Shown: positions 247 through 23,890, counted from the stretch's first letter. The stretch is 64,000 nucleotides of DNA from Candidatus Gastranaerophilales bacterium (GCA_944325005.1 CALUYO010000002.1:1-64000), one strand, 5' to 3'. Notes: generated from the sequence alone by a model not told the origin. Numbers and translations: made by a program.

Positions 247-266
247 CTATTTGTTAAGGATTGAAA

Positions 267-7684: not shown

Positions 7685-8747
7685 TAATGTTTATAGAGGA
7701 AAAAAAATTTTTTTGACGGGTCATACCGGATTTAAAGGAAGCTGGCTGGCATTGTGGCTTGTTAAATTAGGCGCAAGAGTATGCGGTTATTCGCTTGCTC
7801 CAAACACGCATCCTTCAATGTTTTTAGAATTAAATATTTCTGAACAAATTGAAAAGAGTGTAATCGGTGATATTCTTGATGCAAAGAATTTGGAAAAAGC
7901 AATCTCTGATTTTCAGCCTGATATTGTTTTTCATCTTGCAGCACAGCCGCTTGTCAGGTTATCTTATTCTGAACCTGTTTTAACATATCAGACTAATGTT
8001 ATCGGAACTTTAAATGTTCTTGAAGCCGCAAGAAAATGTAAGTCGGTAAAGGCATTTGTCAATGTTACCACTGATAAGTGCTATGAAAATAAAGAAGTTG
8101 CGAGAGGTTACAAAGAGGATGAGCCTATGGGCGGTTATGATATGTATTCATCTTCTAAGGGGTGTGTTGAGATTATGTCAGCTTCATACAGGCGTTCTTT
8201 TCTTATGGGCGAAGGAACTTTTGCAATGGCAACTGCGCGGGCAGGTAATGTTATAGGTGGCGGCGATTGGGCTCTGGACAGATTGATTCCGGATTGCGTT
8301 ATTGCAATAAATAAGGGTGAGAAAATAGAAATTAGAAATCCTGTTGCTGTCCGTCCCTGGCAGCATGTTCTTGAACCTCTTTCCGGTTATTTACTACTTG
8401 GACAAAAACTTTTGGAAAATGGTAAAAAGTATGCTGAGGGGTTTAATTTCGGTCCGGATGAAAATAATGTTTTGCATGTTTCAGATGTTGCGCAAAGGGT
8501 TGTTGATTTTTACGGAAAAGGCGAAGTTATTGTTCAAAAACGCGATAATTTACATGAGGCCGGACTTTTAATGCTGAATATTGAAAAAGCTCAAAAAGTT
8601 TTAGGCTGGACTCCTTCACTTACTGCAGATGAGGCTGTAAGAGAGACTGTTGAATGGTACAAGGCATTTTATGCCGGTAATATTGATATGCTTAAATTTA
8701 CTTTTGTTCAGATTAAAGAATATTCTGATAGAATTAATTGGAGTTAG
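7677..8747 (+). CDS. rfbG: CDP-glucose 4,6-dehydratase
   Basis: Converts CDP-glucose to CDP-4-keto-6-deoxyglucose. The Rossmann motif is GHTGFKGSW (residues 14-22), a form characteristic of RfbG. Also seen are FHLAAQPLVRLSY, NVTTDKCYEN and the catalytic YSSSKG (near 157). NVIGGGDWALDRLIPD and VRPWQHVLEPLSGYL are family landmarks. At 356 aa the length is normal. It overlaps the upstream reductase by 8 nt. Its last 14 nt overlap, on the other strand, the end of an XRE regulator gene. Confidence 0.95.
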   Translation: MFNNVYRGKKIFLTGHTGFKGSWLALWLVKLGARVCGYSLAPNTHPSMFLELNISEQIEKSVIGDILDAKNLEKAISDFQPDIVFHLAAQPLVRLSYSEPVLTYQTNVIGTLNVLEAARKCKSVKAFVNVTTDKCYENKEVARGYKEDEPMGGYDMYSSSKGCVEIMSASYRRSFLMGEGTFAMATARAGNVIGGGDWALDRLIPDCVIAINKGEKIEIRNPVAVRPWQHVLEPLSGYLLLGQKLLENGKKYAEGFNFGPDENNVLHVSDVAQRVVDFYGKGEVIVQKRDNLHEAGLLMLNIEKAQKVLGWTPSLTADEAVRETVEWYKAFYAGNIDMLKFTFVQIKEYSDRINWS

Positions 8748-9069
8748 TTTTAAGATATTTTTGGATATTTTGTATAACCGAAAGATACAGGTCAATTTCT
8801 TGTTCTTTAGAAGAATTAATTATCTGTACCAGCTTTTCTTTTGATTTGCTGATTGTGATATTTTCTTTTTCCGATTTAAAGTCTTTCATTTCTATATTTA
8901 AGGCTTGTAAAATTTTCATGAAATTATCAAAAGTCGGAAAGTGAACACCTGCTTCTATTCTGGATATTTGTTTTTCGTGGATATTTACTTTTTCTGCAAG
9001 CGCTTCTTGAGTTAGTCCTGCAAGTTGTCTGAAATGTTTAAGTTGTCTGCCGATTTCTTTTTTATCCAT
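8734..9069 (-). CDS. XRE-family helix-turn-helix regulator (first of two)
   Basis: A 111-residue protein with an N-terminal HTH: IGRQLKHFRQLAGLTQEALAEKV then EKQISRIEAGVHFPTFDNF, a Cro/C1-type fold. The C-terminal 45 residues are charged and of unknown function. It diverges from the GT8 gene at 9198. The 128-bp region between them carries inverted GTAAT/ATTAC half-sites around a TTGACA, so it may control itself and the GT8 gene. A second XRE gene at 19381 has the same size and a similar position in the locus. Confidence 0.85.
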   Translation of the reverse strand: MDKKEIGRQLKHFRQLAGLTQEALAEKVNIHEKQISRIEAGVHFPTFDNFMKILQALNIEMKDFKSEKENITISKSKEKLVQIINSSKEQEIDLYLSVIQNIQKYLKTNSN

Positions 9070-9131
9070 AAATTTCCTTGATTAATTTATTTCATCTTAT
9101 TTTAAATTTGTAAAATGAATAACAATGAAAA

Positions 9132-9173
9132 ACATTACCTTTTATTATTGACAAGTAATGTATTTTATTACAT
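9132..9173. promoter_or_regulatory. Candidate XRE operator and promoter between divergent genes
   Basis: ACATTAC (9132-9138) and GTAATGT (9155-9161) form an inverted repeat around a TTGACA at 9148-9153. A third half-site, ATTACAT, lies at 9167-9173. The arrangement next to an XRE gene suggests an operator. The -10 box for the GT8 gene is not clear. Confidence 0.4.
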
Positions 9174-9197
9174 GAATATAGTACTGGAGGATATGAA

Positions 9198-10157
9198 ATG
9201 TCTTATAAATCAATAAATATTGCGTTTGCTGCTGATGAAAATTATATTCAGCCAATGTCTGTTGTGATTGCTTCAATTTTGAAAAATGCAAATAGTGATG
9301 ATAACTTGAAATTCTATATATTATGTAATGATGTTTCAGATTCTAGCAAGAAAAAGTTAATGAATTTGAAAAAAATAAAGGATTGTGATATTTCGTTTTT
9401 TGACATTGACAGCTCTGAATTCCAATCTTTTAATATTATGCCGGGAAGTCATATAACACTTACTGCATATTTTAGAATGAAACTTCCAACAATTTTGTCT
9501 GATATAGAAAAAATACTATATCTTGATTGCGATTTAGTTGTAAAAACAAGTTTAAGTAAGCTTTTTTATATTGATATATCAGATTACTATATTGCAGCTG
9601 TTGAAGATATAGGGTGTACTTATTGTCGAAAATATCGTAAAGATATTTTACCTTATGATTATTTATATATTAACAGTGGAGTTCTTCTTATCAATCTTGC
9701 TGAGTGGCGGAAATATAATGTTCACAAAATGCTTTTAGAAACTGCAAAGTCGGGTATTAATCATTTTCAGCATGATCAGGAGATTATTAATATTGTGTGC
9801 CATGATAAATGCCTCTCGCTTGATTTAGCATGGAATGTTCAGGATAGTTTTTTTAGAGATGATTTAATTGTACAAACTAATCCTAATGCTGAATATATAA
9901 AAGAGTGTGCTAAAAAGCCGAAAATTATTCATTATACTTATTTATTTAAGCCTTGGGCAGATGTTAAAATGCCTATGGCAAAAGAATGGTGGTATTATAA
10001 TAAATTTACGCCTGAACCTATGAAAATGAATATTGTTCAAAAAATAGATTTTTTTTGTCCGTTTTTGTGGAATATTTTTAGTGTTAAAAAGATTAATAAT
10101 AAGATAATTATCAGGATATTAGGTATAAAAATATCATTTTCTTGCAAAAAACATTAA
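9198..10157 (+). CDS. GT8 family glycosyltransferase (LgtC/WaaJ-like)
   Basis: A retaining GT8 enzyme, often galactosyl- or glucosyltransferases of LPS. It starts INIAFAADENYIQPMSVVIAS, has the metal-binding ILYLDCDLVV (DxD near residue 109), INSGVLLINLAEWR and HYTYLFKPW, all GT8 landmarks. GGAGG at 9186-9190 lies 7 nt before the ATG. The last 18 residues carry the short tail IIIRILGIKISF seen on several unrelated enzymes of this locus. It diverges from an XRE regulator gene and may be under its control. Confidence 0.88.
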   Translation: MSYKSINIAFAADENYIQPMSVVIASILKNANSDDNLKFYILCNDVSDSSKKKLMNLKKIKDCDISFFDIDSSEFQSFNIMPGSHITLTAYFRMKLPTILSDIEKILYLDCDLVVKTSLSKLFYIDISDYYIAAVEDIGCTYCRKYRKDILPYDYLYINSGVLLINLAEWRKYNVHKMLLETAKSGINHFQHDQEIINIVCHDKCLSLDLAWNVQDSFFRDDLIVQTNPNAEYIKECAKKPKIIHYTYLFKPWADVKMPMAKEWWYYNKFTPEPMKMNIVQKIDFFCPFLWNIFSVKKINNKIIIRILGIKISFSCKKH

Positions 10158-10220
10158 AATAGTATTAATATTTTCTGTTGATGATATAATTTTCTTAGAT
10201 TATATAAGAGGGATTATTGT

Positions 10221-11567
10221 ATGGAACAAGAATTACGAAATAGGGTTAGAGATGCTGTAAGAGAATATTATAATGAGGTTTTTGCTAAACCTCGGGAGTT
10301 TAAATATATTCCGGCTTCAGGGAAACTCCTTGGATGTGAAGAATTGGAAGCCATGGTTGATGCTTCGCTTGATATGTGGTTGACGGCAGGAAGATTTAAC
10401 GATGAATTCGAAAAAGAGTTTGCTAAATACCTCGGAGTTAAATTTGCTCTTTCCACAAATTCCGGTTCAAGCGCTAATTTGCTGGCGTTATCCGCACTTA
10501 CATCCTATAAGCTTGGAGAGAGAAGATTAAAGAAGGGGGATGAAGTTATATCGGTTGCAGCGGGTTTTCCGACAACAATTAATCCTATTATCCAACAAGG
10601 CCTTATTCCTGTTTTCATTGACTGTGAAATAGGTACTTATAATATTGATGCTGAAAAAATTGAGGAAGCAATCACTGATAAAACAAAGGCTGTATTTTTA
10701 GCACATACTCTCGGTAACAGCTATGATCTTGATAAAATCAAACAGATTTGCGATAAATATAACTTATGGCTTATTGAGGACAGTTGTGACGCATTAGGCG
10801 GTGAATACCGCGGCAAGAAACTTGGAACAATAGGACATATAGGTACTTACAGTTTTTATCCTGCGCATCATATGACTATGGGTGAAGGCGGAGCTGTTGT
10901 AACTGATGATCCTCAATTGTATAGAATAATTATGTCTTTTAGAGATTGGGGACGCGATTGCTGGTGTAAACCTGGAAAAGACGATACTTGTAAAAAACGA
11001 TTTCAGATGCAGCTCGGAAATCTTCCGTTCGGCTATGATCATAAATACACTTATTCTCATATCGGGTTTAATCTGAAAATTACTGATTGGCAGGCGGCTC
11101 TTGGATGCGCACAATTAAAAAAACTTCCTCAGTTTATTGAAAAAAGAACGCATAATGCTCGTTACCTTATGAATAAACTGTCTGATTTAAAAGATTATTT
11201 AATATTACCAGAGGTAAAGGAAGGTGTAAAACCCTCCTGGTTTGGTTTTTTGATTTCAACTAAACCACCTCTTTCAAAGCAAAAATTGGTTGAATACCTT
11301 GAAAGTAACGGGGTTGGTACGCGCCAGCTTTTTGCCGGTAATATTTTGCGCCAGCCTATGATTGTTGAAAATGATGTTCAATTAAGAATAGGAAATTCAG
11401 CAATTCTAAGTGCAAAGGATATAACTGAAGAACATTATAAATTACTGCCAAATACAGATTTTATTATGAATAATACTTTCTGGGTCGGTGTTTTCCCTGC
11501 ACTTTCAGAGAAAGAACTTGATAAAACTTCTGATTTAATTCACAAATTTGTTGAGGAAAACAAATAA
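10221..11567 (+). CDS. rfbH: CDP-4-keto-6-deoxyglucose 3-dehydrase (E1)
   Basis: The PMP- and iron-sulfur-dependent enzyme that removes the 3-hydroxyl of CDP-4-keto-6-deoxyglucose. Two hallmarks are exact. The usual PLP lysine is replaced by His in SFYPAHHMTMGEGG (near 215). The [2Fe-2S] cysteines follow C-X57-C-X-C-X7-C at C189, C247, C249 and C257. The rest (LSTNSGSSANLLAL, VAAGFPTTINPI) fits the family, and 448 aa is normal. The reaction needs an E3 reductase (RfbI/AscD), which is not seen in this window. GAGGG precedes the ATG by 7-8 nt. The next gene starts 1 nt after the stop. Confidence 0.95.
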   Translation: MEQELRNRVRDAVREYYNEVFAKPREFKYIPASGKLLGCEELEAMVDASLDMWLTAGRFNDEFEKEFAKYLGVKFALSTNSGSSANLLALSALTSYKLGERRLKKGDEVISVAAGFPTTINPIIQQGLIPVFIDCEIGTYNIDAEKIEEAITDKTKAVFLAHTLGNSYDLDKIKQICDKYNLWLIEDSCDALGGEYRGKKLGTIGHIGTYSFYPAHHMTMGEGGAVVTDDPQLYRIIMSFRDWGRDCWCKPGKDDTCKKRFQMQLGNLPFGYDHKYTYSHIGFNLKITDWQAALGCAQLKKLPQFIEKRTHNARYLMNKLSDLKDYLILPEVKEGVKPSWFGFLISTKPPLSKQKLVEYLESNGVGTRQLFAGNILRQPMIVENDVQLRIGNSAILSAKDITEEHYKLLPNTDFIMNNTFWVGVFPALSEKELDKTSDLIHKFVEENK

Positions 11568-11568
11568 T

Positions 11569-12429
11569 ATGAATATTTTATTAACAGGTTCAGGCGGATT
11601 TATCGGACGTAATTTAAAAGAGTATTTGCAAGATAAATATACTCTTTTGTGCCCGCGTAGTTTTGAACTTGATTTAACTGATGATGCCGCTGTAAGAAAA
11701 TATTTTTCCGGTAATTGTATTGACTTTATTATACATTGCGCTACAACCGGCGGAGCAAGAGGTATTCAGGATAAAGAAACTACTATTGACGATAATCTTT
11801 CTATGGTTAATAACCTTCTTAAATATAAAAGAGACGGGGTGCGGGTAATTCTCTTTGGCTCCGGTGCTATGTATGATAAGTCCAGAAATTTGCATAAAGT
11901 AAAAGAAACTGAAATCGGTAAATTTTTGCCGTATGATTTGTATGGTCAGTCTAAAGTAAAAATTGCAGAAATTGCATCAGGTCGTGATGATGTCCTTTGC
12001 TTGAATATTTTTGCATGTTACGGTTATAACGAAAAGGAAACACGCTTTCCAAGTTACGCTATAAATCAGGTTATAAAAGGCGAAGATATAATTATTAATC
12101 AAAATGTTGTTTTTGACTATCTGTTTGCCGAAGATATGCAGAAAATTGTCGAGTATTTTATTATGCAAAAGCCGCTGAATAAAATTATTAATATCACGCC
12201 TACGGAAAGCGTAAGCCTTGTCGAAATTGCAAAGACGGTAGTTGAGATATCGAGGGGGGGGCAATTTTCTGAGATTAAAGTTAAAAATCCAGTCATGAAT
12301 AATGAATATACCGGTGATAATTCTTTATTGCTTAAGGAAATACCGAATTTTAAGTTTACATCAATGCATGACGGACTTTTTAAATTATACAATTATATAA
12401 AAACATTAAGTTTGGAGACTGCCAGATGA
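11569..12429 (+). CDS. NAD(P)-dependent sugar reductase/epimerase with internal poly-G tract
   Basis: A 286-residue short-chain dehydrogenase. GSGGFIGRN (6-14) is the NAD(P) motif and YGQSK (near 124) holds Tyr and Lys; FDYLFAEDMQKIVEYF fits nucleotide-sugar enzymes. It directly follows rfbH and may reduce the 4-keto group or a branched-chain product (a role like YerF), which is inference. Eight G at 12254-12261 lie at about residue 229. With 9 G the frame stops after six codons; with 7 G it stops within 15. Either removes about 55 residues, a likely OFF state. ATG 11569 is preferred over an upstream TTG. The stop overlaps the HAD gene by 4 nt (ATGA). Confidence 0.8.
   Translation: MNILLTGSGGFIGRNLKEYLQDKYTLLCPRSFELDLTDDAAVRKYFSGNCIDFIIHCATTGGARGIQDKETTIDDNLSMVNNLLKYKRDGVRVILFGSGAMYDKSRNLHKVKETEIGKFLPYDLYGQSKVKIAEIASGRDDVLCLNIFACYGYNEKETRFPSYAINQVIKGEDIIINQNVVFDYLFAEDMQKIVEYFIMQKPLNKIINITPTESVSLVEIAKTVVEISRGGQFSEIKVKNPVMNNEYTGDNSLLLKEIPNFKFTSMHDGLFKLYNYIKTLSLETAR
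12254..12261 (+). repeat. Poly-G tract, 8 G, in the second sugar reductase gene
   Basis: Eight G followed by CAATTTT. The same 15-base string of eight G plus CAATTTT occurs at the pyruvyl transferase tract. In frame as given; either single-base change brings an early stop. Confidence 0.7.
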
Positions 12430-13070
12430 AAAAATATATTATGTTTGATTTGGACGGTACGTTAATTGATTCTTCTAAAGATGTTACAAGGTTATTGATA
12501 AAATCATTGTGCGACTGCGGTTATCCTGTATCACCGGATACATATATAAAAATAGGGCCGCCGTTAAATCAAATGATTAATGCTACGGTTCCTTCGGTTA
12601 CCCCGGAAGATAATAAAAAGGTCGTAGAGCATTTCAGGAAATTATATAAAGATAGTGGAACAGTTATGACTTTCCCTTATGAAGGTATTATTAATTTGTT
12701 GAAACAATTACGCAGAGATGACTGCAAGATTTTTATAGTTACCTATAAACCACGCCCTATGTGCAAAGAGTTACTGCAAAAGTTTTTTGACGGTCTTTAT
12801 GATGATCTTGTGACCCCGACGGATATTGAAGATTTTGAAGATGGAAAAACAAAAGTCGATATGTTTAAACTTTTGTTAAACAAATGGCAGATTTCTCCTT
12901 GCGATTGTGTTATGATAGGAGACGCCAAAAGTGATATTGAATGTGCTAATGCTTCGGGTATTATCTCAATTGGTGCAGAATACGGGTATGCGCAAGATAA
13001 TGATTTGATAAATGCGAATTATCTGGTATCAGATGTAGAAAAATTGTATGAATGTATCAGGAATATATAA
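12426..13070 (+). CDS. HAD-superfamily phosphatase (Gph-like)
   Basis: A 214-residue HAD hydrolase. Motif I is MFDLDGTLIDS (nucleophile and acid Asp), motif II lies around IFIVTYKPRP, and motif IV is VMIGDAKSDIECANASG. The cap region fits the phosphoglycolate-phosphatase-like subgroup. In glycan clusters such enzymes usually dephosphorylate a sugar-phosphate. Here it lies directly before a NeuB-like gene, so a nonulosonate-9-phosphate-like or similar intermediate is possible; the substrate cannot be told. It overlaps the upstream gene by 4 nt. Confidence 0.85.
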   Translation: MKKYIMFDLDGTLIDSSKDVTRLLIKSLCDCGYPVSPDTYIKIGPPLNQMINATVPSVTPEDNKKVVEHFRKLYKDSGTVMTFPYEGIINLLKQLRRDDCKIFIVTYKPRPMCKELLQKFFDGLYDDLVTPTDIEDFEDGKTKVDMFKLLLNKWQISPCDCVMIGDAKSDIECANASGIISIGAEYGYAQDNDLINANYLVSDVEKLYECIRNI

Positions 13071-13079
13071 GGAGAAGAA

Positions 13080-14168
13080 ATGAAAAACAATATTTTTGAA
13101 GATTTATTTGTTCTGGAACTTGCAAATAATCACTGGGGTGACGTTGAAAGGGGAAAAAAAATTATAACCGATTTTTCACGTATAGTTAGATTTAATAATA
13201 TTAAGGCTGCTATTAAACTACAGTTCAGAGATGTTGACCATTTTATTCATAAAGATTTTAAAGATAGACAAGATATAAGATATATTAAAAAAACCATGGC
13301 CACGAAAATGTCTGACGATGATTATGCTGTTCTTGTTGATGCAATAAGAAAGGCCGGATGTATAACCATGTCTACTCCTTTTGATGAAAGATCTGTTGAC
13401 CTGTGTGTAAATTTGGGCGTGCAGATTATTAAAATAGCGTCATCAGATATTAATGACTGGGTTTTAATTGAAAAAATTGCAAAAACAAGAAAACCTGTTA
13501 TTGTTTCTACAGGCGGTTCTTCTCTCAAGGATGTTGATGATCTTGTAACTTTCTTTGATAACAGAAATATTCCTCTTGCTATTAATCATTGTATATCTAA
13601 ATATCCTTCACAAAAAGGTGAATTGGAACTTAACCAGATTGATTTCCTTAAAGCCCGGTATCCTGAACATGTAATAGGATTCTCTACGCATGAGGGGAAT
13701 GAAGATCTTGAAATTCCTATGTATATCGCTTATGCAAAAGGGGCAAGAACTTTTGAACGTCATATTGATATTGATTATAATAACGTTCCTGTTTCGCCTT
13801 ACTGTTCAAAACCTGAGGATTTAGACAGATGGGTTAAAGCTTACCATAAAGCTAAGGAAATTTGCGGTGCTCCTGCAGGGTATAAAAGAATTGCAGATAA
13901 AAAAGAAACAGATTATCTGGATGCGTTAGTAAGAGGAGTTTATGCAAAGAGAGATTTCAAAGCAGGTGATGTACTACATGATGAAGATGTTTACCTTGCT
14001 ATACCCCTTCAAAAAGGACAGATTTCTTGTAGAGAGTTAATGCGTGGTGAGGTCTTGTTGAGAGATATCTCAAAGGATGAACCAATTAAAATTGATGATA
14101 TTGATTCTCCATATGCTTATAACCAATCTTTAAAAGAAAAAATCTATAACAGAGGACTCGAGGTTTAA
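13080..14168 (+). CDS. NeuB-family (N-acetylneuraminate-synthase-like) condensing enzyme with SAF domain
   Basis: A 362-residue relative of sialic, legionaminic and pseudaminic acid synthases, which condense PEP with a sugar. The barrel shows ELANNHWGDVERGK, KLQFRDVDHF, MSTPFDERSVDLC, IKIASSDINDW, VIVSTGGSS and HCISKYPS. About 60 C-terminal residues (RGVYAKRDFKAGDVLHDEDV) are the SAF/antifreeze-like domain. Changes such as GFSTHEG where sialate synthases usually have GYSDHT, and FERHIDID for EKHFT, suggest a different substrate. No CMP-sugar synthetase lies in the window. AAGGAG precedes the ATG. The next gene follows after 3 nt. Confidence 0.85.
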   Translation: MKNNIFEDLFVLELANNHWGDVERGKKIITDFSRIVRFNNIKAAIKLQFRDVDHFIHKDFKDRQDIRYIKKTMATKMSDDDYAVLVDAIRKAGCITMSTPFDERSVDLCVNLGVQIIKIASSDINDWVLIEKIAKTRKPVIVSTGGSSLKDVDDLVTFFDNRNIPLAINHCISKYPSQKGELELNQIDFLKARYPEHVIGFSTHEGNEDLEIPMYIAYAKGARTFERHIDIDYNNVPVSPYCSKPEDLDRWVKAYHKAKEICGAPAGYKRIADKKETDYLDALVRGVYAKRDFKAGDVLHDEDVYLAIPLQKGQISCRELMRGEVLLRDISKDEPIKIDDIDSPYAYNQSLKEKIYNRGLEV

Positions 14169-14171
14169 TAA

Positions 14172-15956
14172 ATGTCGAAAATAAAACTTTCTGATTACGT
14201 TGCCAAAAGGCTTAAGGAATTTTATGGTGTACAAAATCTGTTTATGGTTTCTGGAGGAGGCGCTATGCATCTGAATGACAGTTTTGGCAGATTTATTCCT
14301 TATATTTGCAATCATAATGAACAGGCCTGTGCAATAGCTGCAGAAGGTTATGCCCGTGTAAATCAGGAACTTGCTGTTGTAAATGTAACAACAGGTCCCG
14401 GGGGACTTAACTGTTTAAACGGAGTTTTTGGAGAATGGACTGATTCTGTGCCGGTTCTTTATATATCCGGTCAGGTTAAATTCTCAACTACTATAGCTTC
14501 ATGCCCTAATCTTCAATTGCGACAGCTCGGAGATCAAGAAGTCGACATTGTGAGTGTCGTTAAGCCGTTGACAAAATATGCCATAATGGTAACAGAACCT
14601 GATGAAATAAAGTATCATCTTGACAGAGCAATCTATGAGGCTACAAATGGAAGAAAAGGCCCTGTCTGGCTTGATATTCCAATTAATGTTCAGGCAGCAT
14701 TGATTGATGAAAATGAGCTAAAAGACTTTGTGCCCCCGGAAAAATCGGTTTATGATTTAAAAATACAGAAAGTTCTTGAAAAACTCAGATCCGCAAAGCG
14801 TCCTTTGCTTATTGCCGGTCATGGGATAAGACTTGCTGGCATGACAGAAGTTTTCAGAGATATTATTGATAACTTTGACATTCCTTTTGTCACAACATTT
14901 AACGGATTTGATATTATACCGTCAAATCACAAAAATTTTGTCGGCAGAATCGGTACAATAGGGCAGAGATGCGGAAATTTTGCACTTCAAAATGCAGATC
15001 TGGTAATATGCCTTGGTACAAGAAATAATATTCGTCAGGCAAGTTATAATTTTGAAAATTTTGCAAAAAATGCTTATTTAATTTCTGTTGATATTGATAA
15101 TGCGGAGTTGGACAAACCTACTGTTATTCCGGATTTAAAAATAAATGCGGATTTAGCTGATTTTTTACCTGAATTTGCTAAACACGTTGAAAAATCTAAT
15201 AGCTGGTCAATAGAGTGGCTTCCTTTTTGTAAAAAGCTTCAAAATCGATATTCCTTTGAGAATACTCCTGAGTATCAGCAAGCTGGTGATAAAATTAATG
15301 TTTATCATTTTATAAGGCGTGTAACTGAATTGATGAAAGAAGATGATGTTTGTGTAATGGCAAATGCAACAGCAACAATTTGTACATTTCAAACAGCAAT
15401 TGTTAAGGAAAGACAGCGTTTCTTTTCTAATTCAGGTGATGCTTCAATGGGGTATGATTTGCCTGCTTCTATTGGTGCGTGTATAGCAGCAGGCCGGAAA
15501 AATACGGTTTGTTTTGCAGGTGATGGTTCAATTATGATGAATTTGCAGGAACTTCAAACGATTAAACATCATAATTTGCCTGTGAAGATATTTTTGTTGA
15601 ATAATGACGGTTATATTTCAATAAAACAAACTCAGAATAATTTCTTTGAAGGCAGAAATACTGGAGCCGGTGTTACAAGCGGAGTTAGTGTTCCTGATTT
15701 TGTTAAGGTTGCCGGTGCTTTTGGTATTGAAACATTCAGATTGTCAGATCCTTCAGAAGTTGATAATGCTGTTAGAAAAGTGCTCTTGGCCGATAATCCG
15801 GTTCTTTGTGAAGTTATGGTAAATCCTGACTATATATTTACACCGAAATTATCTTCAAGAAAACTTGCGGACGGGACTATGATTTCTCCTTCGTTAGAGG
15901 ATATGTTTCCGTTTCTTGCCAGAAATGAATATCAGGAGAATTTACTTGTAAAGTAA
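14172..15956 (+). CDS. ThDP-dependent acetolactate-synthase-like enzyme of the glycan cluster (YerE-like candidate)
   Basis: A full-length (594 aa) thiamine-diphosphate enzyme. NHNEQACAIAAEGYAR has the catalytic Glu, VTTGPGGLNCLNG is the N-terminal landmark, and GDGSIMMNLQEL (near 450) with LLNNDGYISI forms the ThDP-Mg site. It resembles acetolactate synthase but has no regulatory subunit nearby and sits in a sugar cluster. In Yersinia, YerE is such an enzyme and adds a two-carbon acetyl unit to C4 of CDP-3,6-dideoxy-4-ketoglucose to make yersiniose. With rfbF, rfbG and rfbH here, a YerE-like role is attractive but inferred. A general 2-keto acid enzyme is the alternative. Confidence 0.75.
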   Translation: MSKIKLSDYVAKRLKEFYGVQNLFMVSGGGAMHLNDSFGRFIPYICNHNEQACAIAAEGYARVNQELAVVNVTTGPGGLNCLNGVFGEWTDSVPVLYISGQVKFSTTIASCPNLQLRQLGDQEVDIVSVVKPLTKYAIMVTEPDEIKYHLDRAIYEATNGRKGPVWLDIPINVQAALIDENELKDFVPPEKSVYDLKIQKVLEKLRSAKRPLLIAGHGIRLAGMTEVFRDIIDNFDIPFVTTFNGFDIIPSNHKNFVGRIGTIGQRCGNFALQNADLVICLGTRNNIRQASYNFENFAKNAYLISVDIDNAELDKPTVIPDLKINADLADFLPEFAKHVEKSNSWSIEWLPFCKKLQNRYSFENTPEYQQAGDKINVYHFIRRVTELMKEDDVCVMANATATICTFQTAIVKERQRFFSNSGDASMGYDLPASIGACIAAGRKNTVCFAGDGSIMMNLQELQTIKHHNLPVKIFLLNNDGYISIKQTQNNFFEGRNTGAGVTSGVSVPDFVKVAGAFGIETFRLSDPSEVDNAVRKVLLADNPVLCEVMVNPDYIFTPKLSSRKLADGTMISPSLEDMFPFLARNEYQENLLVK

Positions 15957-15982
15957 AAATAAATAAATAAGGAATTAAGAAT

Positions 15983-17248
15983 ATGAATAATTTTAAAAGA
16001 CCTTTTTTTCTTCATGGCGGTTTTATTACCTCTGAAGATGATATAAGTAGCATAGATAATTTGTATAATAATTTAACAGAGAATATTGGAAACGGTTATA
16101 TAATTTATTCCTTACTAAATGAACTTTATGGGAAAACTATAGTCCCGAACCAGACTCTTCTTTTGTATGCAGATATAAAAAGGGATATTCCCGTTATAAA
16201 CGAACAGAGTTCTTGTGCAATATTAATGCTTCAGGATTTTATAAGACCAAAAGAAGTTCAGTTTGATATTGATTATGATTTGTGGTATAACCTTATATCA
16301 AAAATTAAGGTGCCTTTGTTCTTTCCGAGCCTTGGTATTAATTCTTTTGACGGTATAAAAGAGCTGCACAAAAGATTGAGTCCAGAGCTTGTAAGGATTT
16401 TAAAACTTGTTTCGGATAAAACAGAATTAATAGGTGTAAGAGGCTATGAATCGCAGGAGGTCCTTCATAATCTCGGTATTGACAATGTACATGTTATAGG
16501 CTGTCCGAGTTTCTTTAAAAATGGTCCCGACAGGTTTATTACTAAAAAAGAAAACTTAGATTTGAATAATGTTGTTTTTTCAAGTGATTATAATCTTGAA
16601 ATAATAAAAAATCGTCCTGTAGTAATCCAGGGTAACAACAAGGAATTATGGGATGTAATGTGTTTTGATAAGTCCATTAAAAATATTCAACCTTATAATA
16701 TGGATATTCTTTTGAATTCAAAACCTGTAATGTTTTCGGATAACAGAAGCTGGGAAGAGTATCTGTCAAAATTCGATTTTTGTCTGGGTACACGCCTTCA
16801 TGGAGCAATAGTTGCCTTAAACAGCGGAACTCCGGCGGTATGCGTAAATATTGATGCCAGAGCTATGGAACTTTGTTCTTATTTGAAAATCCCTTGTTTC
16901 CCAGAATACTTGCATGAAAAAAATATTCAAAAAATTTATGATGCTTGTGATTTTACTGAAATGAATTCAAATTATAATAAACTTTATGAAAATTTTGTTA
17001 ATTATCTTGAAAAGTCCGGATTAAAGAATGCTGTCGGGGGGGGGGCAATTTTAAGCTCGTTGCCGGAATTTAGAAGCCCTAATATAAAATGTGAGCTTTC
17101 AATTGCTAATAAGAGACGCTTGTTTATCGAAAAATTAAAATTAAATTTATTATCTAAAACGAAAACAAAAACTCATAGAATATTCAGGGTCTTAGGCTTT
17201 AAAATTACTGTTAAACGAAAAAAAAGGGTAAAAATTAAGGGGAATTAA
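15983..17248 (+). CDS. Polysaccharide pyruvyl transferase family protein with poly-G tract and tail motif
   Basis: A 421-residue member of the CsaB/WcaK family, which adds ketal-linked pyruvate to glycans (some relatives have other roles). Landmarks: PLFFPSLGINSFD, LIGVRGYESQEVLHNLG, HVIGCPSFFK, and FCLGTRLHGAIVALNSGTPAVCVN with the conserved RLHG. Ten G at 17036-17045 lie near residue 352 and encode Gly-Gly-Gly-Ala. With 11 or 9 G the frame stops within nine codons, cutting the last 65 or so residues. These include the basic tail HRIFRVLGFKITVKRKK shared with other enzymes of the locus. AAGGA precedes the ATG. Confidence 0.85.
   Translation: MNNFKRPFFLHGGFITSEDDISSIDNLYNNLTENIGNGYIIYSLLNELYGKTIVPNQTLLLYADIKRDIPVINEQSSCAILMLQDFIRPKEVQFDIDYDLWYNLISKIKVPLFFPSLGINSFDGIKELHKRLSPELVRILKLVSDKTELIGVRGYESQEVLHNLGIDNVHVIGCPSFFKNGPDRFITKKENLDLNNVVFSSDYNLEIIKNRPVVIQGNNKELWDVMCFDKSIKNIQPYNMDILLNSKPVMFSDNRSWEEYLSKFDFCLGTRLHGAIVALNSGTPAVCVNIDARAMELCSYLKIPCFPEYLHEKNIQKIYDACDFTEMNSNYNKLYENFVNYLEKSGLKNAVGGGAILSSLPEFRSPNIKCELSIANKRRLFIEKLKLNLLSKTKTKTHRIFRVLGFKITVKRKKRVKIKGN
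17036..17045 (+). repeat. Poly-G tract, 10 G, in the pyruvyl transferase gene
   Basis: Ten G in frame as given, followed by CAATTTTAAGCTCGT. The downstream bases resemble those after the acyltransferase tract (CGCTCTTAGCCTCGT). With 9 G the next stop comes after three codons. Confidence 0.8.
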
Positions 17249-17257
17249 TTTTCCCCT
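17238..17257. terminator. Bidirectional hairpin terminator between convergent genes
   Basis: AGGGGAA and TTCCCCT (7 bp) flank a TTAATT loop. T-rich runs lie on both exits, so it can end both the pyruvyl transferase transcript and the minus-strand fusion gene. Confidence 0.7.
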
Positions 17258-17263
17258 AATTTC

Positions 17264-19381
17264 TTATATACTTTTTGCAAATTCTTTTATTCTTTCAATA
17301 TCCTGCAAACCTTCTTTTGAAGCCCCTGAAAGTCTGTCACCTGTCCATATTACTTCCAGGCCTAAATTGTTCGCGGACTTATAAATAATTCCTGCGGCTC
17401 TAAGCATATCATCTTTTATGAGATGAGGTGTAAATGTCGTAAATTCTCCTTCTTTTGTTTTAAAATACTCATCTCCATCTTTCGCAATCGCTCTCATATC
17501 TGCATCTATAATAACGTATGTTTTATTAGGATTTTCTAAACTTACCCTCCTGCAAATATCTATAAAACCGTATATATCTTTATCAGAAGTATTTGAACCG
17601 TCTTCAAGAAGTATATATTTCAGATAAATTGTGTCAAAAATGTCTTCTTGAGCACTTCTGATTATGTTATTGACAACATCATCGAATGCATCTCTATTTC
17701 TGATTTTTGTGTATGTTTCACGGGTTCCGCAGTCAATGGATGTTTTTAGTGTTGTCTTAATTTTTTTCTGCTTAAAAATTGGAATTATGTCATTAACCCG
17801 ATTGGAAAGAGCGTAATTAGATACAAGTACTATTCCTCCTTTAGGGTAATTTTTTGCCATAAAACTATATGTTTTATCAATGTTATTCAAGAGCAAGGGC
17901 TCGCCGCCGCCGAGTTCAAGCTGTATATTTTCTTTAAATAGTCCTATTTTATGGAAGTTTTGTATCGCAGCATAAAGATCTGCTGTTCTTGGATCAAGTT
18001 TGGCATATTGTTCATTTTTTTGAAAAAAGCAGTAACAGCATTTCAAATTACATGTTGTATGCGGATGATATATTAAGTAACTAATTTTGCCTATATCAAT
18101 TTTTTTAGCAGGCTTCTGTATTAAGCACTCACAGCCTTCACATTGTGGTGCCATACCTTTATTTATATCTTCATATAATTTAATTCTGTTTTTTTGAATG
18201 TCATTATAGGTCAGTTCATCATAGTTATATTTTTTATCAACAAGAATCGGTACGGCTCTGGTGCAGCAGGCATAAATATGGTTTTCTCGCATTGGAATTA
18301 TGCCTGCCTGATTACTGTCAAGCCAGTAACAAACCTTTTTTAATCCTCTTCTTTTTACTTTTAGCTTAATTCCGAATATGTTGAATATTTTGTGTGTATT
18401 TGTTTTTTTTATTGAAATAATCTTTTTTCTTAGCTTTTTTAAAAGTTTATGGTAAGGTATCATTAAAATCCAGCTGAATATTTGTTTTAAAAAAGCTTTA
18501 CAGTTATTATCTCCCAGTTCGCACATTAATTCAATCAGCTCTTTTTGTTGTTTTTTGCTTGTCCCAAGTAAAATTTCAAAGATATTATAAATATAGCCGT
18601 TGTTTTCACTTAAAAAATATCTCATGGAATCTTTAAAGCTGGAGCCCATACACAGGACATCACAGCATTCTTCCTTTGTCTTTTTATCTTCTATAAGCTG
18701 GTAGGCTGCAATATACGCAGAAAGAAGTTGAAAGTTATCCATTTTATGGTATATCCATTTTTTAGGATTGCGTATCATATTACATTTATCATTGTAAGTT
18801 TGAATTACAATCTTATGTTCTGGCACATATATTTTCCCATGTTGATTTAAAATCGCACAATTGAGCGCATGTTGAGGACAAAATGTATAGGATATTCCGT
18901 ATGCATTTTGGATAACTTCTGAAGTTATATGTTTTGTATTATAAATAGATGTAGAAAGAAAAACTTCTTCATTTAATATATATGGAGTTGTTTCATTTCT
19001 TACTCCGTCTGTGAAAGTTGTATGAACGATATCGTAGTCTTTATTGAGAGCACTTTCAATTTCAGACCAGTATTTAAAATTATATTTGTCGTCGTCGCCT
19101 AATATCCATAGCCATTTTTTTGAAGCCATTTCAAATGCTCTGATAATATTTCCTGATATCCCGATATTATACTTGTTTCTAATGTATTTAAAATTCGTGT
19201 GAGAGGAACAAAAATTTTCGCACAGCTCTTTTGTTCCATCGTTTGATGCATTATCAATAATAATAAAATTAAAGTTTTTAATCGGAGAATTTTCAGCTGA
19301 AAGACTTTCCAATGTATGTTTTAATTTTATCTTGCGATTATATGTTATAATTATTATTTCCAGTTCATTATTTAATGACAT
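17264..19381 (-). CDS. Fusion of a GT2 glycosyltransferase and a radical SAM enzyme
   Basis: A 705-residue two-part protein. Residues 1 to about 300 are GT2 (IITYNRKIKLKHTLESL, then IIIDNASNDGTKELC, and LWILGDDD near 95). A linker at about 329-346 carries the tail motif HKIFNIFGIKLKVKRR. A Cys-rich zone follows (YACC near 372 and CEGCEC near 413), then the radical SAM core with CNLKCCYC near 444 and the GGGEPLL SAM motif. The early cysteines may bind an auxiliary Fe-S cluster. The same two parts occur as separate neighbouring genes at 19825-22000. Its ATG overlaps the TAA of the XRE gene (TAATG), so it is coupled to that regulator. Reaction and substrate are unknown. Confidence 0.85.
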   Translation of the reverse strand: MSLNNELEIIIITYNRKIKLKHTLESLSAENSPIKNFNFIIIDNASNDGTKELCENFCSSHTNFKYIRNKYNIGISGNIIRAFEMASKKWLWILGDDDKYNFKYWSEIESALNKDYDIVHTTFTDGVRNETTPYILNEEVFLSTSIYNTKHITSEVIQNAYGISYTFCPQHALNCAILNQHGKIYVPEHKIVIQTYNDKCNMIRNPKKWIYHKMDNFQLLSAYIAAYQLIEDKKTKEECCDVLCMGSSFKDSMRYFLSENNGYIYNIFEILLGTSKKQQKELIELMCELGDNNCKAFLKQIFSWILMIPYHKLLKKLRKKIISIKKTNTHKIFNIFGIKLKVKRRGLKKVCYWLDSNQAGIIPMRENHIYACCTRAVPILVDKKYNYDELTYNDIQKNRIKLYEDINKGMAPQCEGCECLIQKPAKKIDIGKISYLIYHPHTTCNLKCCYCFFQKNEQYAKLDPRTADLYAAIQNFHKIGLFKENIQLELGGGEPLLLNNIDKTYSFMAKNYPKGGIVLVSNYALSNRVNDIIPIFKQKKIKTTLKTSIDCGTRETYTKIRNRDAFDDVVNNIIRSAQEDIFDTIYLKYILLEDGSNTSDKDIYGFIDICRRVSLENPNKTYVIIDADMRAIAKDGDEYFKTKEGEFTTFTPHLIKDDMLRAAGIIYKSANNLGLEVIWTGDRLSGASKEGLQDIERIKEFAKSI

Positions 19382-19710
19382 TATATATCCTTTATAATTT
19401 TTGCTATCGCATGTAGAAGCTGCGTATCTTTAGTATTTAGTTCTGGCAATATCTGTATAATATTCTTTTTCAATATCGATTCATCTTCTAAATGATCGTA
19501 ATTAAACAAATCTTTTATCTCACAATCATATACTTTAGCCAGTTTAACCAATGTTGAAAGTGAAGGAAATGATTTCCCACTTTCAATTTGTGCGACCTGT
19601 CTCTGGTTGATATCTATTTTTTCCCCTAAGACGAATTGTGTATAATTTTTACTTTGTCTTAGTTGTTTAATCCTCTTTCCTAAGAGGATTTTCACCTTTT
19701 TATCATCCAT
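19381..19710 (-). CDS. XRE-family helix-turn-helix regulator (second of two)
   Basis: A 109-residue DNA-binding protein. LGKRIKQLRQSKNYTQFVLGEKI and QRQVAQIESGKSFPSLSTLVKLA form a Cro/C1-type HTH, and the C-terminus is short and charged. Its stop overlaps by one base the ATG of the GT2-radical SAM fusion gene, so the two are made together. It diverges from the separate GT2 and radical SAM genes, so it could set which version is used. It resembles the XRE protein at 8734 in size and layout but is not a close copy. Confidence 0.87.
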   Translation of the reverse strand: MDDKKVKILLGKRIKQLRQSKNYTQFVLGEKIDINQRQVAQIESGKSFPSLSTLVKLAKVYDCEIKDLFNYDHLEDESILKKNIIQILPELNTKDTQLLHAIAKIIKDI

Positions 19711-19767
19711 AACAGCTCCTTTTGTTATTATATTTTCCTGAATAATTAATAAAAATGTTATTGCATA

Positions 19768-19796
19768 TTGTAATTTATTTATAATTATGATATTCT
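19768..19796 (+). promoter_or_regulatory. Promoter for the split GT2/radical SAM pair
   Basis: TTGTAA (19768-19773), a 17-nt spacer and TATTCT (19791-19796). The predicted transcript start near 19803 falls almost on an in-frame ATG at 19804, so this message may be leaderless. Confidence 0.5.
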
Positions 19797-19824
19797 ATCT
19801 TGTATGATTTTTGTTGAAGGGTGT

Positions 19825-20814
19825 ATGGAAGACAGACTTGGTTTAGAGATTTTTATAATTACATATAACAGGAGAGAGAAATTACAAAAAACTCTTAATC
19901 AAATTTTTGATATAAATAGCCCTGTTAGAAATTTTGATATAAAAATTATTGATAATTCTTCAAATGATGGTACTGGGGAACTTTGTGCAGAGTACAAAAA
20001 ACGTTTCCATAATATTACTTATCTGTGTAACAATAGAAATGTGGGTTTATCTGGAAATATTATAAAACCTTTTGAGCTTGCATCAAAAAAATGGCTGTGG
20101 ATTTTGTGTGATGATGATGAATTTGATTGGACGCATTGGAGTGAAATTGAAAATGCTTTAAAATGCGAAGAAAATGCTATTGTAATGGCTGAGCGTCTGA
20201 CAGATTATAACAAAATTTCACTGCCTGTTCTTATTAATGAATTTTCTTTTCTTCCGGCTGCAATTTATAATACAGCTAATATTACGCCTGCAGTTTTACA
20301 AAAAATGTATGTAAATGCTTACACATTGTTTCCGCACATGGCACTTGTTTGTGAGATAGTAAATGAAGGTAAAAAGATTTTTGTTCCCGAACATGTTCTT
20401 GTGAAACAGTCATTTGATCTTGAAAAAGATAATAAGCAATATGCAAGAGGTGCAGATAATAAGCTTCATTTCAGACAAAAAAGATTTCATTTATTCTGTG
20501 GTTTTGCCAATTCTTTCAGAATGCTAAATGATAAAAATTTAAGATATAAATGCTGCGAAAATTTTATGCTGGGATATCCTTTTAGTGAAGCGATGTCATT
20601 ATTTTTGGCTCATAATGGTTTGGATATTAATAATTTATTTGATTTATTTTGTGCGTTTAGCTTACGACAAAACATTATTTTTTCTTTATTGATAGTTAAA
20701 TATATTTTAAAAAATATATTTTTTATAAGTGTAACACGTGAGAGAATTTATATAGCGGTATTAAAAAAATTAAAAATTAGATTAAATTTAACAAGGAGAT
20801 ATGAAAATGCATGA
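19825..20814 (+). CDS. GT2 glycosyltransferase, stand-alone partner of the radical SAM enzyme
   Basis: A 329-residue GT2 enzyme clearly paralogous to the first half of the fusion at 17264-19381. Both share LEIxIITYNR, IIDNxSNDGTxELC, GxSGNII, FExASKKWLWIL and a DDD metal site. ATG 19825 was chosen because GAAGG lies just upstream and the product then lines up with the paralog's start. An in-frame ATG at 19804, sitting at the predicted transcript start, is the alternative. The last 60 residues are hydrophobic then basic (IYIAVLKKLKIRLNL), a degenerate form of the locus tail motif. The stop overlaps the radical SAM gene by 8 nt. Confidence 0.85.
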   Translation: MEDRLGLEIFIITYNRREKLQKTLNQIFDINSPVRNFDIKIIDNSSNDGTGELCAEYKKRFHNITYLCNNRNVGLSGNIIKPFELASKKWLWILCDDDEFDWTHWSEIENALKCEENAIVMAERLTDYNKISLPVLINEFSFLPAAIYNTANITPAVLQKMYVNAYTLFPHMALVCEIVNEGKKIFVPEHVLVKQSFDLEKDNKQYARGADNKLHFRQKRFHLFCGFANSFRMLNDKNLRYKCCENFMLGYPFSEAMSLFLAHNGLDINNLFDLFCAFSLRQNIIFSLLIVKYILKNIFFISVTRERIYIAVLKKLKIRLNLTRRYENA

Positions 20815-22000
20815 ATTTAAACCGGATGATATAGTAAAAAGTTGTGATGCAATTGAAGCAGGATGCAGACTTCATCCTGAGGGTATGGGTTGTTGCTACA
20901 AGCTCCCTGTTATGTCCCCTATTATCGTAACTTCAGAAGAGATTAATTCTCCGGAATTTTCTCATGAAATGATTGTTAATAAAAGAAGACAGCTTTTTGA
21001 GGCTCTAAACGGTTTAAATGATGGTATGGATACTGGTTCTTGTAAGACCTGTGCCTGTTTAAAGGAGAAAAAATATAAGGATGTAAATTTTGAATATCTT
21101 GGAGGGTGTAATATTGAATCATCTTTTAATATTGCGCCGAGTTATAGTTGTAACTTAAGATGCAGTTATTGTTATTTAAAAGAAACTGCTAACGGGCATT
21201 ATCATCCTGCAACTTATAATATTATTGATGTATATGATAAATTCAGAGAAAAAGATAGAATAAAACCTGCTCCCTGGATTCAATATAACGGAGGAGAGCC
21301 CACATTAGATAAAGATTTTGAGAAAAACCTTGACTATATGGTTAAATATATGGGGACTGTTTGTATTTTCTCAAATTCTACAAATTATAGTCCGCTTGTA
21401 GAAAAATATCTTGCTGAAAATAAAATTTTCTATGAAACTTCTGTAGATGCGGGAACTGCTTCTACTTATAAAAAAATTCATGCTGCTGATGCTTATATGA
21501 GGGTTTTAAGTAACATTATAAGGTATGTAAAAACAGGTACCAATAATGTTTTCGTTAAATACATAGTGCTTCCGGAAAATATGACAGATGATGATTTATG
21601 GGGATTTGTAATGGCTATGGCTGCAATTAAGCCGCCTCATGTTTATATCGCATCTGAATATGTCTGTGGCGACGACTTTAAAATACATCCGGAAAGTTAT
21701 AAATTTGCTGCTAAGATGTGGTATATGTTGGAAAAATACGCGGGCATAACTCCATATCTGCCGACAGATGATGAAGCAAGTGATGAACAGTACGTAAAAT
21801 ATTCTCAGGATGTAAAAGCTGAATATGCAAGGCTTGTTAAAGAGAATCCTATTACGGACGAATACAATCTTAATAAAAAATGCTGCTGTAAGAATAAAAA
21901 GAAGCTTTCTTTGAGAAAACGTTTATTTTCAATAGTTAAAGACAATAATCACAGAGTTATAAGATTGGCCGGCTTAAAAGTTGCTTTAAAAACGAAATAA
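20807..22000 (+). CDS. Radical SAM enzyme with N-terminal cysteine cluster, partner of the GT2
   Basis: A 397-residue radical SAM protein. The core has SCNLRCSYC (CxxxCxxC, near 114-121) and YNGGEPTL. Before it lie further cysteines (GCC, then CKTCAC), matching in order those of the fused paralog and suggesting an extra Fe-S cluster placed N-terminal to the core. A second Cys group (KKCCCKNKKK) lies near the C-terminus, which ends in the tail motif HRVIRLAGLKVALKTK. ATG 20807 has AAGGAG 8 nt upstream; ATG 20801 is too close to it. The 8-nt overlap with the GT2 gene implies coupled synthesis. A glycan or lipid carrier modification is likely but unproven. Confidence 0.85.
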   Translation: MHEFKPDDIVKSCDAIEAGCRLHPEGMGCCYKLPVMSPIIVTSEEINSPEFSHEMIVNKRRQLFEALNGLNDGMDTGSCKTCACLKEKKYKDVNFEYLGGCNIESSFNIAPSYSCNLRCSYCYLKETANGHYHPATYNIIDVYDKFREKDRIKPAPWIQYNGGEPTLDKDFEKNLDYMVKYMGTVCIFSNSTNYSPLVEKYLAENKIFYETSVDAGTASTYKKIHAADAYMRVLSNIIRYVKTGTNNVFVKYIVLPENMTDDDLWGFVMAMAAIKPPHVYIASEYVCGDDFKIHPESYKFAAKMWYMLEKYAGITPYLPTDDEASDEQYVKYSQDVKAEYARLVKENPITDEYNLNKKCCCKNKKKLSLRKRLFSIVKDNNHRVIRLAGLKVALKTK

Positions 22001-22042: not shown

Positions 22043-23890
22043 CTATTTACTTTTGGCAAAATAAAATTTTAGACCTAATATTGTAATCTTTTTACTTTTT
22101 ATTTCATTGTCATTACTATTTTTAACTGAAAACAGTTCCTGTGAAAATTTTTTAAATTCTTTTTTCATAATATACTTTTTATTCTTAATACCAAGAATTT
22201 TATAATTTTGTGCTTCAATAATTCTCGAAAACATTCTTTCCAGTGTATGAGCAATTGTTTCTCTTCCACTGGTTTCTTGTTTTTCTGGAAAGTCTGACTC
22301 CGTTAAATTCATTTCTTTTATTTTGGCAAAACAGTTTGCTCGTGCTATAAACATGGTTCCCGCTACAAATATTCCTTTTTGCGCAGGTATCCGGTATTTT
22401 GAGCACATTTCAGAAAATAACCTGTTATCTTCCGCGTATTTGTCTCCCATTTGTGATAGAGTTGATAGTGATGCAATCATTCCGATCTTTGGATGCAGAT
22501 TTAACTGATATAAATTGTTGTTAAAAATCAATTTACTTCCAAGCAGCGCATCTATTAAGAGATTTCTCCAGGTAAATCCTTTGCCGAATTCCCATGCTTT
22601 TTCTTTTCTGTAATTCTTAGTGTGAATTTTTAATATGTAGTCATAGTTTTTCAGGTCTACTAGATTCAAAACATATATAAAAGGCCAAATATCGTAGCCG
22701 GTATTTTTTACTTTAATAATTTGTGCATCCGGTTTAAATGCTTTTATTCTGTTTATGATAGCGGGATTTTCTTCACTGACTGTTACAAATAAGTCCCAAT
22801 CACAGTTGTTTATATTCCCGAGCTTTTTTAGCATATAATCCAGCTGAGCATGGTAATATAGATGCAAGTGTACAAGAATTCGAGGCTTAGGATTAAATTT
22901 GATTATTCTTTTTGTGCTGAATTTTAAACCTAAGATATTTAAATTTTTATTATTTCCCTCATTTCTTAGTAAAAATAACTTTTGAAATACATTTGAATTC
23001 ATCTTAGTATTATGAATGATACTCTCTTTTAGAGTATTAAACTTTTTGTATTTTATTTCATCTGCATATTTCCGTGCAGTTTTTATTATTAGCTCCCTGT
23101 GTGCCTCATCTGACAACTTGTATGCAAGTCTGAAATATATTTCAAATAGTTTTATTATGGAATGTTTATGTTGAGCTAATATATTTTGTTTTTGCAACCT
23201 TTTGTATAAATTATGCCAGGCATAAAGATGGTGAATTGATTTTCCACTGCAATTGTTCATTATTGAGTTTTGGCGTTGTCTGTAAAAATAATAATTGCCT
23301 GTATTAAGGTAATATGCCTTTTTAATTTTCAGCATATAGTCCCATAGAAAAACAAAATCTTCAAAATACAACCCGTATGGAAATTCAATATTATACTTTT
23401 TTATAATTTCTGTTTTATATAATTTATTCCATGCATAAACATTTGTTTTTAAAATAATTTTATCTGTAATTTCATTTTCTCCTTTGAAATGGCATTTAAG
23501 ATTATTTTGTATTGTTTGTGGAATTTGTATATCTCCGAAAGCCTCGGCATTAAAGCAAATTATTTCTGCCGGAAGATATTCGGCAAGGGTTTCATAGAGT
23601 GTTGTGCTGACAAAATCGTCACTGTCAATAAACGAGATATATTCGCCGGTAGCATGCTTAATTCCGGTATTTCTTGCTGCTGAAAGCCCTTGATTTGGCT
23701 GGTTAATAATTTTTATTCGATTATCTTTACATGCAAATTTATTGAGAATTAATGATGATTTATCTGTAGAGCCGTCATTTACACAGATAATTTCAATATT
23801 TTTGTATGTTTGTCCGATAATGCTTTCAAGACATTGTTCAAGATACTCTTCTACATTATAGACCGGCACTATAACTGAAATTTTAGGCAT
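22043..23890 (-). CDS. GT2 glycosyltransferase fused to an RgpF-like rhamnan synthesis domain
   Basis: Residues 1 to about 220 are GT2 (ISVIVPVYNVEEYLEQCL, IICVNDGSTDKSSLI, ISFIDSDDF). Residues about 335-590 match the RgpF family (ILVHLHLYYHAQLDYML, NTGYDIWPFI, YILKIHTKNYRKEKAW, GTMFIARANCF), found in rhamnose-rich cell-wall glycan assembly. The tail motif appears twice: at the join of the two parts (NLNILGLKFSTKR, near 317) and at the very C-terminus (ITILGLKFYFAKSK). This suggests the protein arose from two once separate enzymes that each carried the tail. It is last of a three-gene minus-strand operon with another GT2 and glf. Confidence 0.85.
   Translation of the reverse strand: MPKISVIVPVYNVEEYLEQCLESIIGQTYKNIEIICVNDGSTDKSSLILNKFACKDNRIKIINQPNQGLSAARNTGIKHATGEYISFIDSDDFVSTTLYETLAEYLPAEIICFNAEAFGDIQIPQTIQNNLKCHFKGENEITDKIILKTNVYAWNKLYKTEIIKKYNIEFPYGLYFEDFVFLWDYMLKIKKAYYLNTGNYYFYRQRQNSIMNNCSGKSIHHLYAWHNLYKRLQKQNILAQHKHSIIKLFEIYFRLAYKLSDEAHRELIIKTARKYADEIKYKKFNTLKESIIHNTKMNSNVFQKLFLLRNEGNNKNLNILGLKFSTKRIIKFNPKPRILVHLHLYYHAQLDYMLKKLGNINNCDWDLFVTVSEENPAIINRIKAFKPDAQIIKVKNTGYDIWPFIYVLNLVDLKNYDYILKIHTKNYRKEKAWEFGKGFTWRNLLIDALLGSKLIFNNNLYQLNLHPKIGMIASLSTLSQMGDKYAEDNRLFSEMCSKYRIPAQKGIFVAGTMFIARANCFAKIKEMNLTESDFPEKQETSGRETIAHTLERMFSRIIEAQNYKILGIKNKKYIMKKEFKKFSQELFSVKNSNDNEIKSKKITILGLKFYFAKSK

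Follow-up and report, generated by a model that had tools for sequence, protein, structure and literature searches.

The DNA analyzed here, called the window, is a stretch of 64,000 nucleotides from the 2.0-Mb assembly of a Candidatus Gastranaerophilales bacterium. It carries a fusion of a GT2 glycosyltransferase to a radical SAM (rSAM) protein and, divergently, two overlapping genes that encode a GT2 and an rSAM protein separately. An XRE-family regulator lies between the two units, and a sugar locus converges on the fusion. The features discussed below are as follows.

4944 to 17248, plus strand, with one XRE gene inside on the minus strand: surrounding sugar locus (similarity and Pfam)
17238 to 17257, no strand: terminator-like hairpin between the fusion and the converging sugar operon
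17264 to 19381, minus strand: GT2-rSAM fusion, 705 aa (ORF and Pfam; counterpart in the species G288)
17633 to 18061, minus strand: radical SAM core of the fusion, with CNLKCCYC and GGGEP (PF04055, structural model and fold matches)
18107 to 18346, minus strand: SPASM/twitch-like N-terminal region of the fusion's rSAM half (invariant Cys; PF13186 in a paralog)
18347 to 18421, minus strand: linker of the fusion, residues 321-345, IISIKKTNTHKIFNIFGIKLKVKRR, marking the fusion junction
18953 to 19357, minus strand: GT-A domain of the fused GT2, containing a DDD motif, at residues 9-143 (PF00535, 7.8e-23)
19381 to 19710, minus strand: XRE-family HTH regulator (Pfam HTH_3, 7.5e-13)
19711 to 19824, no strand: divergent intergenic region with presumed promoters and operator, near-identical in three species
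19804 to 20814, plus strand: stand-alone GT2 of the split pair (PF00535, 6.7e-19)
20801 to 22000, plus strand: stand-alone rSAM of the split pair, with four N-terminal Cys (PF04055, 7.5e-13)

Fused and split forms of a GT2-rSAM pair

ORF calls and Pfam bear out the four open reading frames of a preliminary description of this DNA, with their strands, coordinates and domains. The 705-aa protein does join a GT2 to a radical SAM domain: both PF00535 and PF04055 match, the latter at residues 441-583 (1.9e-8, above the Pfam cut-off). From its N-terminus, the fusion consists of the GT2, a beta-tail linker, an N-terminal four-Cys region and the radical SAM core. The linker IISIKKTNTHKIFNIFGIKLKVKRR is a tail motif that also terminates other glycan enzymes. 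The fusion start overlaps the XRE gene by 1 nt, and the split GT2 and rSAM genes share a 14 nt overlap. For the split GT2, 19825 is a more probable start than 19804, since the homolog in the species G196 aligns from the former position.

Both GT2s have a PF00535 GT-A domain with a DXD-type motif, and their structural matches are the GT2 enzymes TarS, TarP, RmlT and SpsA. Their top-scoring NCBIfam model is that of the PglI-like GT2 glucosyltransferases (NF050050), at 50 and 36 bits, far under its 500-bit cut-off; unlike the window proteins, PglI-like enzymes have no rSAM partner. The preliminary description held that the split genes encode the same two parts as the fusion. The parts are indeed alignable, and the quoted motifs are present (CNLKCCYC/CNLRCSYC in the rSAM halves, and ASKKWLWIL), but the likeness is uneven. 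Identity between fused and split GT2s reaches 41% over 276 aa (4e-68); that between the rSAM halves, which are more diverged, is 28% over 251 aa (4e-22).

The fusion is retained and recombined in sister species

The fusion served as query against 383 genomes of the family, with our own ORF calls for the genes of relatives; the nearest relatives belong to the same genus. Fusions were present in 2 genomes of this sample. The second, in G288, is a 693-aa protein (L082:10595-12676) with the same junction as in the window, and an assembly or frameshift artifact is ruled out by this independent species. The G288 locus runs from a pyruvyl transferase-like gene through the fusion, two SDR genes and XRE to a divergent GT2/rSAM pair, whose proteins are 76% (GT2) and 93% (rSAM) identical to those of the window. 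The two fusions are 87% identical in their rSAM halves and only about a third identical in their GT2 halves. Identity shifts at the linker, and the fused GT2s of the window and of G288 fall in separate clades of a GT2 tree.

G196 also has the split pair (GT2 77%, rSAM 95% identical to the window), though its rSAM (L084:8500-9459) stops at 319 aa, without the C-terminal part and tail of the window copy. In place of the fusion it has a stand-alone GT2 that groups with the window's fused GT2 in the tree and whose end coincides exactly with the point at which an rSAM half would start. Because G288 swaps the GT2 half and the G196 GT2 stops at the junction, the fusion is real and modular.

An N-terminal cysteine set and a radical SAM fold

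The rSAM proteins have the CxxxCxxC motif of the radical SAM superfamily, PF04055 scores above its cut-off in both, and the structural model matches rSAM structures. Four further Cys lie N-terminal to the core, at fusion residues 351, 372, 414 and 417 (6, 27, 69 and 72 of the rSAM half). Together with the three core Cys, they do not vary among 13 glycan-type members or among 18 mixed members; Cys6 is near-invariant across 53. No invariant Cys follows the radical SAM core in the alignments of the 13 and 18 members. The four N-terminal Cys probably hold one extra Fe-S cluster.

An rSAM core beside an extra set of conserved Cys is shared with SPASM/twitch enzymes (NF033640 N_Twi_rSAM, PF13186). 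The canonical order, with the auxiliary domain C-terminal to the core, is reversed here: the Cys-rich region is N-terminal, and it is fused to or paired with a GT2. PF13186 does not match the window proteins, but it matches a paralog (L037:11609-12622) at residues 5-66, the equivalent N-terminal place. NF033640 matches 9 of 18 family members weakly, with a best score of 56 bits against a 170-bit cut-off; the window proteins score lower.

The rSAM half is modeled with confidence (pLDDT 91, pTM 0.91), and the model indicates a radical SAM fold. Its top Foldseek match in the PDB is DesII (1.4e-7, TM 0.49, 18% identity), a TDP-amino-sugar radical SAM lyase that acts on a nucleotide-sugar substrate. 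SkfB, anSME, SuiB and viperin follow closely, and VIA-align scores DesII (Z 13.5) below both PFL-activase (15.2) and SkfB. We take the match as a lead, not a test, as a TM of 0.49 with 18% identity is generic to the superfamily and does not imply a shared reaction; DesII, moreover, is not fused to a GT2. For the full fusion, the model gives no usable interface between the GT2 and rSAM domains, because its pTM is 0.59.

The wider rSAM family has further arrangements. G159 and G309, of genus g41, each have about 40 paralogous rSAM genes of about 325-350 aa with four N-terminal Cys (46 and 47 rSAM matches in 2-Mb genomes), in head-to-tail or divergent arrays (L037:6442-15593, L133, L134, L041). 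One array consists of nine rSAM genes with no other gene inside and lies near FlhA-like and CheA-like genes. Family members are also fused to a MatE transporter (764 aa) and to hexapeptide acyltransferases (both among L035:7750-10044, L047:8568-10454, L131:8402-10264 and L132:9054-10934); the L047 acyltransferase fusion adjoins a PGA_cap gene.

Two old rSAM subclades in polysaccharide loci

A midpoint-rooted tree unites the glycan-type rSAMs in a single supported group (19 rows, support 100/99), apart from the large paralog group in other genera. The group divides into a fusion clade of 15 rows and a split-pair clade of 4 rows. Since the two window rSAMs fall in these two clades, and G291 has one rSAM of each within a single locus, the phylogeny identifies the window genes as two old paralogs, not a recent copy. 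A recent local duplication of one pair is rejected by the same placement. The rSAMs are under strong purifying selection between sister species, with dN/dS of about 0.02-0.05, values that are rough because dS is near saturation. The rSAM half of the fusion, with a ratio of about 0.05, retains all seven Cys.

The same two subclades occur in polysaccharide loci of G307, G213, G320, G291, G306 and G035, and of G501, which belongs to a different family. The rSAM gene directly precedes a GT2 gene in G307/G213 and G501; three species of one genus have the order GT2 then rSAM; and in G035 one gene lies between the two. Wherever an rSAM lies in a polysaccharide locus, that locus also has a GT2 of the same clade (10 of 10 genomes, which are not ten independent events: the G307 and G213 GT2s are identical, and three genomes share a genus). 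The pairing is asymmetric, as most GT2s of the clade occur without an rSAM and the rSAMs usually share a locus with such a GT2. Near five fusion-clade rSAM genes (of G087, G309 and G364) we recognized no genes of this sugar locus; the G381 contig is too short to judge.

With qualifications, these results bear out the Rosetta-stone argument of the preliminary description, by which the fused and split forms imply that the two activities work together. It gains from the fusion of two GT2 lineages to one rSAM lineage and from adjacency in both orders, and the suggested genome search did find a second fusion (G288) and adjacent genes (G307/G213/G501). It loses in that the fused and split forms are two old subclades rather than one pair in two forms. 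Halves that usually occur apart were to count against the argument, and this holds on one side only, that of the GT2s.

In a sample across the order, 25 of 192 genomes had matches, mostly to the GT2 only, and every rSAM match among 386 genomes of the phylum fell within the order Gastranaerophilales. A search of named genomes, made with short patterns of limited sensitivity, matched only three Gastranaerophilales loci. We reject a plasmid or phage origin: plasmids and viral contigs gave no rSAM match, and phage gave a single weak one (26% over 41% of the query). The literature searched described no GT2-radical SAM glycan system, in agreement with the preliminary description.

The surrounding sugar locus

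By similarity, the sugar locus encodes a CDP-glucose-type cytidylyltransferase and dehydratase, a DegT-family enzyme, epimerases, HAD, NeuB-like and ThDP enzymes, and a pyruvyl transferase-like protein. Its gene content is that of a CDP-dideoxyhexose/ThDP-enzyme polysaccharide cluster. Gene sets of this kind, with variants, occupy 4944-15956 of the window and also L130, L087, L092 and L093. In the loci of relatives the NeuB step is replaced or supplemented by HpcH/HpaI aldolase-, dehydroquinate synthase- or FGGY kinase-like enzymes, and this variation suggests that the product may be a branched, higher-carbon or carbocyclic sugar. In gene content, with its CDP-dideoxyhexose-type genes and an acetolactate-synthase-like ThDP enzyme, the locus resembles systems with YerE-type ThDP enzymes, which make branched 3,6-dideoxy sugars; the window and related loci differ in adding NeuB-like or HpcH/DHQS-like enzymes and an rSAM.

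A short tail like HKIFNIFGIKLKVKRR is common to enzymes of unrelated folds, at the end or between domains. In the window it occurs in a GT8 (9198-10157), the pyruvyl transferase-like protein (15983-17248), the GT2-rSAM fusion (17264-19381), the split rSAM (20801-22000) and a GT2-RgpF protein (22043-23890). The pattern is found in 20 of 707 proteins of related loci, against 1 in shuffled sequence, and is predicted by modeling to form small beta strands. At 261-3119, an ABC transporter is extended at its N-terminus by about 360 aa. On visual inspection the extension looks like an aminoglycoside/choline-kinase-like fold (SHCDLKTNNIL); it is present in G196 (L135, 81%) and absent from G035.

The XRE regulator

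The regulator between the two units is assigned to the XRE family by Pfam HTH_3; against the RstR-type model NF041951 it scores 45.4 bits, below the 80-bit cut-off. Its orthologs in G288 and G196 are 80-81% identical. No operator footprint could be distinguished in the divergent region of the three species because the whole region is conserved, and a promoter scan performed no better than on shuffled sequence (35 against 31). A second XRE gene (XRE1) lies at 8734-9069, within the region 8734-9197. Near 9155-9173 is a palindrome, GTAATGTATTTTATTACAT, that is largely conserved in G196 5' of a GT8 gene.

Discussion

We tentatively favor a reading in which the fusion and the split pair are versions of one type of glycosyltransferase-rSAM module, which would radically modify a glycan sugar in step with its transfer by the GT2. 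The GT2 would add a sugar to a growing lipid-linked glycan. The rSAM, with a probable extra Fe-S cluster in its N-terminal four-Cys region, would form a 5'-deoxyadenosyl radical that alters a hydroxyl-bearing carbon of the transferred sugar or its donor. A first guess at the reaction is an oxidation, as performed by single-auxiliary-cluster enzymes such as BtrN; epimerization or dehydration are alternatives. BtrN is a twitch radical SAM dehydrogenase that oxidizes a ring hydroxyl of an aminocyclitol and has one auxiliary cluster. It would share with the module an auxiliary cluster beside the rSAM core and a sugar-like ring substrate, but its auxiliary domain is C-terminal, not N-terminal. Gene fusion or overlap would hold the two activities together.

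In favor of a coupled module, fusion and overlapping pair are both kept in sister species, and rSAM halves that are 87% identical are fused to GT2s of two clades. The reversed adjacent order in G307/G213 and G501, the GT2 in all ten polysaccharide loci with an rSAM, the conserved Cys, the purifying selection, the confident rSAM model, the Foldseek rank of DesII and the frequent presence of the ThDP enzyme also speak for it. Against it are the many clade GT2s that have no rSAM, the fusion-clade rSAMs found outside sugar loci, the lower VIA-align rank of DesII and the full-fusion model with its unusable interface. The GT2 partner is freely swapped, which argues against an rSAM bound to a single GT2 specificity. 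A bolder proposal, which we consider rather unlikely, is that these proteins represent a new bifunctional type of enzyme in surface-glycan assembly, whose radical half, with its SPASM-like N-terminal region, modifies a sugar during or just after transfer, as part of a module that recombines with glycosyltransferases to diversify the coat.

It is possible, if doubtful, that the rSAM instead tailors a CDP-linked branched sugar before transfer, near the ThDP step, and that its proximity or fusion to GT2s is a by-product of shuffling. The ThDP enzyme is present in 11 of 12 genomes with a fusion-type rSAM, as opposed to 74 of 383 genomes in all (P about 8e-8, kinship ignored); in G501, G307, G213 and G320 its gene is the first one upstream of the rSAM, or nearly so; and the GT2 partners are interchangeable. 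However, adjacency or fusion to a GT2 is direct in several arrangements, the G035 pair has no ThDP or CDP genes nearby, and beyond ThDP and (where covered) CDP genes, there is no single module of sugar synthesis that every rSAM locus shares.

A peptide or protein substrate, either RiPP-like or a glycosylated surface protein on which the GT2 also acts, seems improbable to us. Most SPASM/twitch rSAMs mature peptides or proteins, the fold neighbors include SkfB, SuiB and anSME, and in another genus a paralog array lies beside FlhA- and CheA-like genes. Yet beside the pair we recognized neither a precursor-like gene nor a leader-binding domain or protease; its neighbors are nucleotide-sugar and polysaccharide genes. 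It is very unlikely that the fusion is a functionless accident of rearrangement, possibly with one active half only: polysaccharide loci turn over fast and the fusion is rare in the family, but two species have kept it, with its rSAM half constrained and its Cys complete.

Least credible is the earlier suggestion that the XRE regulator sets whether the fused or the split version is made; although it sits between both units and the divergent region is near-identical across three species, in G288 and G196 it heads a unit of sugar SDR genes instead of the fusion, and some loci with XRE2-like genes (e.g. L094, L095) have no rSAM.

Radical SAM tailoring of sugars is known mainly from small-molecule pathways. 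Should the coupled module that we favor exist, with an rSAM attached to a polysaccharide glycosyltransferase, radical chemistry would reach into bacterial coats as well, pointing to sugars that are hard to make by ordinary chemistry. The gene pairs are ready-made constructs for activity tests. For the gut Gastranaerophilales, a poorly studied group, such a module would provide a mechanism of glycan diversification.
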